Source: Leptolyngbya sp. NIES-3755
GTDB lineage: Bacteria > Cyanobacteriota > Cyanobacteriia > Leptolyngbyales > Leptolyngbyaceae
Direction of reading: 5' to 3'
DNA: 64,000 bases
Assembly: GCA_001548435.1 (NCBI GenBank)
Contig: AP017308.1
Span: forward strand, 5,403,030-5,467,029
Shown: one piece after another, positions 35,132 to 36,462 of the stretch
How the letters are laid out: the number at the start of each line of letters is the position of its first letter
Position numbering within the stretch: the stretch's first letter is position 1
Made by a program: the position numbers and the translations under genes
The notes under the pieces: model-generated
Told to the model about the DNA's origin: nothing
The model's input: the letters and a program-made list of their open reading frames with translations, nothing else
Databases searched by the model: none

Positions 35132-35422
35132 CTAATGGTTCACGAATTCTCGCAGTTCGTTAATATCAATGTCGATTCCTTGACGCTTCAGATATTGACT
35201 CAGATTGATCTGGATAAATAAATCTTTGAGTTCTTCAGCAATCTCTACAGGTGGATTGCCAGATAGTGCGGTTGCGATCAGACGTTCTGCGGCTTGAGTT
35301 TCTTGCTCAAAAGCTTGGCGGGTGAACTGTGTAGCCTCTTCTAAAGCACCTCTTAAACGGGCAACTGCCGCTGCTTCAGCTAAATCCATTGCTTGTTGAT
35401 GGAGCGATTGAATCTGGCTCAT
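35132..35422 (-). CDS. Conserved helical protein, partner of the split gene
   Basis: 96 aa, mostly helical: MSQIQSLHQQAMDLAEAAAVA, RLRGALEEATQFTRQAFEQE, then LIATALSGNPPVEIAEELKD. Its ATG overlaps the stop of the upstream ORF (35419-35422, ATGA), so it is translationally coupled to the gene interrupted by the insertion. No function is recognised. Confidence 0.7.
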   Translation of the reverse strand: MSQIQSLHQQAMDLAEAAAVARLRGALEEATQFTRQAFEQETQAAERLIATALSGNPPVEIAEELKDLFIQINLSQYLKRQGIDIDINELREFVNH

Positions 35423-36462
35423 TGAAGTATGGTTCCTTCAGGATTTTGCTTTGTACTGATCATGGAAATCGGGCGGCTGAACTCTACCACAATGATATAT
35501 GCTGGCAAGCCCTGTGCGTCTGATGTGCGGGTTTGTTCAATTTTCTGCTTTACTCTGGTATTCACCTGACCTCGATTGCCTCTACGAATTCCAGACACTT
35601 CTAGACGTGCCATTCGCTCAAACGGCAGTGTAGTGGCAGAATCTTGACTTCCTAACCAATAGTCAAATCCAGTCCCTTTACGAGAACGCTCAATCACTGT
35701 GAGATCGGTCAGTTGCAGAATTAACAGGAATGCAACTCCTTGACACTCCCACGCTTGAAAGACGTGGGATTCTTGGTTCATCGAGACCACTTAAACTAGA
35801 TTCCTTGCGTTGTCTAGCCCAGAGGTGGGACTCTCCCCAAGCGTTAATTCGGGTATGCCCTACCCTATTTGCATTGCTGCAAGTTCTGTTTAGATTTGAA
35901 GCAAATCTGCTCCAAAATGCTGTTCGTCTAGCTCCTCCGAATCTTTTACCTACTGCGAGGTGGAGTCTAGAAAAATGCAGTAGAACCGCATAGATTCAGT
36001 TTTCAAGGTTCAGCGTTGTACCTTTCGGCAACTGGGTTTTTTAAGTGGTTGATTACCCTTTCCACTGATTCAAATGTACGACAAAACTGAAGGGGATTTT
36101 GTGAAGATTTCTGAAAGTGTCGGACTCTGCCGACTACCATCGGCGCGGGAACCGTTCTGTATCCAACGGAGGTCAGCATATTGGTTTTATCCGGTTCCCG
36201 AACCCTCCAGCCTATAAGCAGCTTGTTCCGTTGTGTATTCTTCGTCATTCCAACATCGTCGGGCTTGATCAGTGACAGGTTGCCAATCGAGTCGGAATTG
36301 AGTCGAAAATTCCCCTTCAACGTCGAGTGTTACTCCAGGTTGGTGATCTTCATCGGTGAGACAAATCGCACCTGCTTCCGCGATCGCTGCTCCAAAAGCG
36401 GGTGTAATCGCGGGAAGTCCTTGGTTAAGATTTTGTAAGTTTAGAACTCGTGTCTGGCTCAA
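35419..36462 (-). pseudogene. Conserved cyanobacterial gene split by an insertion
   Basis: The N-terminal half is 36462-36214 (83 codons: MSQTRVLNLQNLNQGLPAIT to EEYTTEQAAY). The C-terminal half is 35739-35419 (106 codons: GVAFLLILQLTDLTVIERSR to FSRPISMISTKQNPEGTILQ). I recognise the two as consecutive parts of one ~189-aa cyanobacterial protein of unknown function. Between them lie 474 bp of insertion. The halves are in the same frame, but the insertion brings a stop (TAA, 36187-36189). A downstream start in the insertion end (35790) would make a chimeric ORF in which MVSMNQESHVFQAWECQ is transposon sequence. Confidence 0.78.
35740..36213 (-). mobile_element. IS200/IS605-type remnant (474 bp)
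   Basis: One end has the hairpin TCCCACG/CGTGGGA (35747-35753 with 35763-35769) followed on the minus strand by GAGTGTCAAG, the usual right end of cyanobacterial IS605/TnpB elements. The minus strand just upstream reads GHTRINAWGE...LDEPRIPRL, like the extreme C-terminus of TnpB. The zinc-finger and RuvC parts are missing, so it is internally deleted. Near the other end is the inverted repeat CGGGAACCG/CGGTTCCCG (36146-36154 with 36192-36200). There is no transposase. The flank on the left-end side is GCTTAT. There is no target duplication, as expected for this family. Confidence 0.72.

Follow-up and report, generated by a model that had tools for sequence, protein, structure and literature searches.

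A protein-free IS200/IS605-type element with a long conserved, guide-like RNA interrupts a gene in the cyanobacterium Leptolyngbya sp. NIES-3755

Introduction

What is the 474-bp stretch of DNA that splits a gene in Leptolyngbya sp. NIES-3755, and could it be removed again precisely? The gene lies in the window, by which we mean the whole stretch of 64,000 nucleotides that was analysed (contig AP017308.1, positions 5,403,030 to 5,467,029); coordinates below are window positions, and the features of the gene and the element are all on the minus strand. An earlier note on this DNA had described the insertion as an IS605-type, possibly MITE-like element that might be removable at the DNA or the RNA level. 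Non-autonomous IS200/IS605 derivatives, for which the term PATEs is in use (PMC3119063, PMC7290912), are already known, as are TnpB guide RNAs. The main point of this locus, which the earlier note overlooked, is that most of the element is taken up by a long, conserved and structured RNA, apparently its only product.

Results

The interrupted gene and its empty site

Deletion of 35740-36213 joins the first half of the gene (36214-36462; 83 codons from a TTG start, ending in ...EQAAY) to the second half (35419-35739; 106 codons plus stop, beginning with GVAFLLILQ) in a single open frame of 189 codons, or 570 nt with the stop, exactly as had been proposed, while retaining the 474-bp insert places stops in all three frames of the disrupted gene. 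Full-length relatives of the restored protein, uninterrupted and 83% identical to it, are encoded in the genomes G027 and G002, of which G002 belongs to the same genus, and their DNA (L050 and L051, respectively) can be aligned across the junction for 700 bp with no gap, at 84% and 80% identity. Uninterrupted homologues, to which the earlier note had looked for a check, thus carry the predicted junction, which reads GCTTAT^GGAGT in L050 and GCTTAT^GGCAT in L051 (the caret marks the insertion point). On the lineage leading to the window, 18 nonsynonymous and 32 synonymous substitutions have occurred in the gene, close to the values of its relatives, and this undecayed state of the halves fits a recent insertion. 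Neither Pfam nor NCBIfam searches gave the protein a name or a function. The stop of the disrupted gene is overlapped by the ATG of a small conserved gene at 35132-35422; the two genes are neighbours in the relatives too and probably form an operon.

Ends, target and guides

The element (35740-36213) encodes no protein and is inserted 3' of a short target, TTAT (C_L, 36214-36217), which lies to its left and is also the predicted TAM; the assignment of the target draws on the empty sites, on a relative described below (L007) and on co-variation. The target is not duplicated, either here or in the phage copy considered below, which sets the element apart from classical MITEs, and the combination of an unduplicated short target with a precise empty site is that of the IS200/IS605 family. 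Also in keeping with that family, both ends have sub-terminal hairpins with guide tetranucleotides that match the cleavage sites, as judged from co-variation at the left end and from the sequence (GAAT and TCAA) at the right. The left hairpin (36163-36184) has AAAA (G_L, 36185-36188) at its foot, and the right end (35740-35772) consists of GAAT at 35769-35772, a hairpin at 35748-35768, AGTG, and TCAA at 35740-35743. The earlier note had recognised the hairpin and right end as of the TnpB-element type but misplaced the exact end, which is GTGTCAA, the next G being the gene's.

Where a left end can be recognised, the usual reading is TTAC^CGAAAAATTGGGTTTAAAG-CCCC... or TTAT^...AAAA-CCCC..., and the fourth base of the target goes with that of the left guide, C with G or T with A, in 35 of the 37 cases counted (TTAC/AAAG, TTAT/AAAA; Fisher p 6e-9, which is only indicative given that the cases are related copies, six of them added by hand). 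The window element combines the target TTAT with the left guide AAAA. At the right end, the order GAAT, variable hairpin, AGTG, TCAA is the same in most copies, and the strict pattern AAGAATC-hairpin-...TGTCAA is found in 62 of 79. In IS608, the left guide is AAAG, the right guide GAAT and the right cleavage site TCAA, and we take the TTAC/AAAG, GAAT and TCAA layout of this family to be the IS608 arrangement. The IS608 target, TTAC (PMC8612924), is likewise that of most copies of the family, of which the window element is a TTAT/AAAA variant without tnpA or tnpB.

Relatives of the element

A full-length relative with 83% identity, L007, occupies a different, apparently intergenic site in a sister species (G003), and its borders, TTAT^AGGCT...GTGTCAA^, are identical to those of the window element. 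Other copies with the same ends, which the earlier note had suggested looking for, therefore do exist, and its IS605-type, MITE-like assignment is upheld by the IS608-type ends and target, by the empty sites in relatives and by this full-length relative at another site. The intergenic locus of L007 has no orthologue in the genus, and its empty site is uninformative.

The Leptolyngbya genome itself has most of the element in two further copies (L002, L003), along with one lone left-end fragment (L004), many tnpB genes, and only three Y1 transposase genes, one of which has a stop. Both ends of the element recur on tnpB-bearing elements: left ends resembling its own precede tnpB in L013, the tnpB elements L005 and L006 contain a 30-bp piece of its left end within theirs, and tnpB elements of other genomes (L014-L016) have ends that match its right end.

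A conserved RNA with a pseudoknotted 5' domain

Between the right end and the left ends, which differ among copies, about 340 nt are conserved. For the first 150 nt of this RNA (domain R1, 35918-36067; hairpins plus a pseudoknot), a covariance model scores 170 bits at the element (E 1.7e-33), whose own sequence is included in the model. Of 292 cyanobacterial genomes, sampled from the phylum and searched with this model, 45 have the domain, with three copies in the genome studied here and up to 20 in a single genome. Across 80 copies, 95.8% of cells are paired and 326 compensatory double changes are seen, where shuffles give 105 on average and slid partners no more than 47. Of the six helices counted, four were used in fitting the alignment, which leans toward them. 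The pseudoknot helix E (35927-35971), which stands outside the model, would pair the loop TCTAG (from 35971 downward) with CTAGA at 35927-35931; it is paired in 93% of cells; for the most part it does not vary, but L007 and L114 show compensatory changes.

Just upstream of the RNA lies a -10-like box, TACATT (36073-36078), and in 78 copies a TANNNT box clusters at -13 to -10 relative to the RNA start. The R1 domain has no match in Rfam and is absent from the tnpB genes examined, and on these alignments the predicted pseudoknotted domain constitutes a new conserved RNA family. Three R1 copies (L120, L121, L129) end in ...TATGTCAA in place of GTGTCAA, an end type known on the tnpB elements L038 and L040, and the 5' domain thus occurs on more than one type of right end.

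Upstream of the RNA, four copies (L008, L082, L095, L115) have a divergent small ribbon-helix-helix-like ORF, which also occurs in the left ends of L005 and L006 and thus on RNA-only and tnpB elements alike; one such ORF exceeds the Pfam RHH_1 cut-off, and the product is possibly a repressor of the element's promoter. In L011, L025 and L033, short hairpin repeats (GCGCTCA...GGGTTTCCC...) are inserted within loops of the RNA, indicating that other repeats nest in the element.

A 3' domain related to tnpB 3' ends

The 3' domain of the RNA (R2, 35740-35869) was modelled solely from copies without tnpB, and this model nonetheless matches the 3' ends of tnpB genes, with E values of 1e-26 to 1e-16 for the best. 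Scores are 105-106 bits at L014 and L015, 86-91 bits at L016, L029 and L023, and 67.8 bits at L044 of the same genome as the window, the last suggesting a clear but distant relation; tnpB loci of a Nodularia host and phage are also matched. The GGGCA-loop hairpin of the RNA corresponds to the VGHT codon run in TnpB. Positions 35770-35841 match RAGATH-18 (RF03064) at 26.5 bits, below the gathering threshold of 44.9, and in five copies such sub-threshold matches cover one and the same stretch of the model; the guide RNAs of IS607 TnpB have RAGATH-18 as their scaffold (PMC11061315). Together, the tnpB-end and RAGATH-18 matches argue that the last 130 nt are a scaffold of omegaRNA type, homologous to tnpB 3' ends and abutting, at the right end of the element, the would-be guide in the flank. 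From TnpB reRNA biology (PMC8612924), the predicted guide would be about the first 20 nt of the second half of the gene, GGAGTTGCATTCCTGTTAAT (35720-35739).

The TnpB-like C-terminal reading frame described in the earlier note coincides with the RNA segment which, in relatives that bear tnpB, overlaps the 3' end of that gene, and is better read as an omegaRNA scaffold than as a coding remnant. A remnant of TnpB coding sequence was considered and rejected, as indels between copies disrupt the frame, no TnpB frame lies farther upstream and the upstream part has no tnpB match.

The product of L044 is a full TnpB (NF040570, E 7.6e-83). Its element adjoins TGAC and not TTAT, so that its TAM may not suit the window element. 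Further proteinless elements of the same genome (L165-L168) combine R2-type ends with other 5' parts. L165, L166 and L167 form a second family with target TGAC, a right-end scaffold of the L044 tnpB kind and a conserved 5' RNA part that differs from R1; L168 has a TTAT target and an AAAA left guide and is interrupted by another short palindromic repeat.

Recent movement in Nodularia phages

BLAST searches with the RNA gave matches in Nodularia phages and in two cyanobacterial plasmids. The copy in phage kac65v151 (437 bp; L177 2365-2801, phage 119557-119993) is 100% identical to the chromosomal copy L088 in G336, and the sister phages kac68v161 and 2AV2 are exactly 437 bp shorter at the same site, the precise empty site in kac68v161 being GAATTAT^TATAAGG. 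A phage copy identical to a chromosomal one, facing an empty site in a sister phage, shows that the element family has recently been mobile. Genes for TnpB with R2-type ends are present in both host and phage. Phage kac65v151 has five TnpB-domain matches, three of them with RNA of the same type at the 3' end.

Discussion

We suggest that the window element is probably a non-autonomous IS200/IS605 element that depends on TnpA in trans and carries a guide-like RNA for TnpB, also in trans. The supply of TnpA, the transcription of the RNA, its use as a guide by a TnpB encoded elsewhere and the resulting homing are what we infer for its life cycle. A Y1 transposase TnpA encoded elsewhere would peel the element out and paste it, and precise excision of the DNA would restore the gene. 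A transcript extending into the flank would carry a guide copied from the disrupted gene, with which a TnpB from elsewhere, e.g., that of L044, could cut alleles that lack the element or have lost it again (TTAT + GGAGTTGCATTCCTG...), and with a filled copy as template for repair the element would then be put back in place. For ISDra2, the cutting of donor joints by TnpB, guided from the right end, is established (PMC8612924). The 5' pseudoknotted domain may stabilise the RNA or aid TnpB loading without a tnpB mRNA in cis, which is the least certain step of the scheme.

Much of the evidence given above also bears on how else the RNA might be explained. The element could be an ordinary decayed MITE, derived from a tnpB element by internal deletion, with an RNA that is a relic without function and a structure that persists only because TnpA needs the ends; it has no protein, and a right and a left end alone suffice for recognition by TnpA. 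Yet the 5' domain consists of sequence other than tnpB, is remote from either end and covaries strongly over 80 copies, the -10 box clusters in position, and the domain is retained on more than one right-end type, all of which make decay an unlikely account. The signals for expression on its own and the added 5' domain, absent from the examined tnpB-bearing elements, could suit a regulator or decoy that titrates or inhibits TnpB, or that represses targets with a nuclease-dead relative of TnpB (TldR-like), but the retained scaffold, with a 3' end that abuts a different flank in each copy, fits a guide, and we consider such a role less probable still.

Precise removal at the DNA level is well supported by the empty sites, including the empty and filled phage pair, and is plausible for this insert; removal at the RNA level, the other route named in the earlier note, is unsupported. 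An IStron-like RNA that excises itself from the transcript and leaves the gene working would be consistent with the shared orientation of element and gene and with halves that, by the substitution counts above, still read as coding. However, the intact halves are accounted for by recent insertion, the group I and group II intron models of Rfam give no match at E ≤ 5, and the left regions vary widely among copies, unlike the fixed 5' splice region of an intron. We therefore give self-splicing hardly any credence and retain the reading of a transposed element with a guide-like RNA.

This element shares with PATEs its sub-terminal hairpins, lack of protein, short unduplicated target and presumed mobilisation in trans, and differs in being filled by a conserved 340-nt RNA with a promoter-like box and a pseudoknotted 5' domain. 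Its RNA resembles TnpB omegaRNAs or reRNAs, such as those of ISDra2 and the IS607 RAGATH-18 RNAs (PMC11061315), in a 3' domain homologous to tnpB 3' ends, and departs from them in standing apart from tnpB and in having an extra upstream part of about 200 nt; at about 26 bits, it also scores well under the RAGATH-18 family cut-off of 44.9. Our search of the literature, which covered papers readable without subscription and whose silence is weak evidence, found nothing on the window RNA or on cyanobacterial stand-alone omegaRNA elements. Neither Rfam nor the literature searched contains a proteinless element dominated by a long, promoter-equipped RNA with an extra pseudoknotted domain. Standalone omegaRNAs have been reported for IscB, as guide RNA genes without an adjacent nuclease; these serve another nuclease family, and the IscB guide is at the 5' end.

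More broadly, and with somewhat less than even confidence, we propose that cyanobacteria and their phages harbor widespread protein-free, 'guide-RNA-only' transposons, each with a stand-alone, promoter-driven TnpB guide RNA bearing a dedicated pseudoknotted 5' domain that the examined tnpB genes lack. Such transposons would jump with borrowed TnpA and home with borrowed TnpB, and would spread in this way between co-infecting phages as well. TnpB is the ancestor of Cas12, and if the RNA works as proposed, a guide RNA of TnpB can leave its nuclease behind and travel as a gene in its own right, driven by its own promoter. Such a step would be comparable to that by which guide RNAs and Cas12 became separate in CRISPR systems. 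The pseudoknotted domain at the 5' end may also be relevant to the loading of TnpB with RNA in trans. As the empty site of kac68v161 presents TTAT and a perfect match to the guide, the phage pair, with filled and empty sites, an identical copy in the host, and TnpB in both host and phage, would make RNA-guided homing between phages directly testable.
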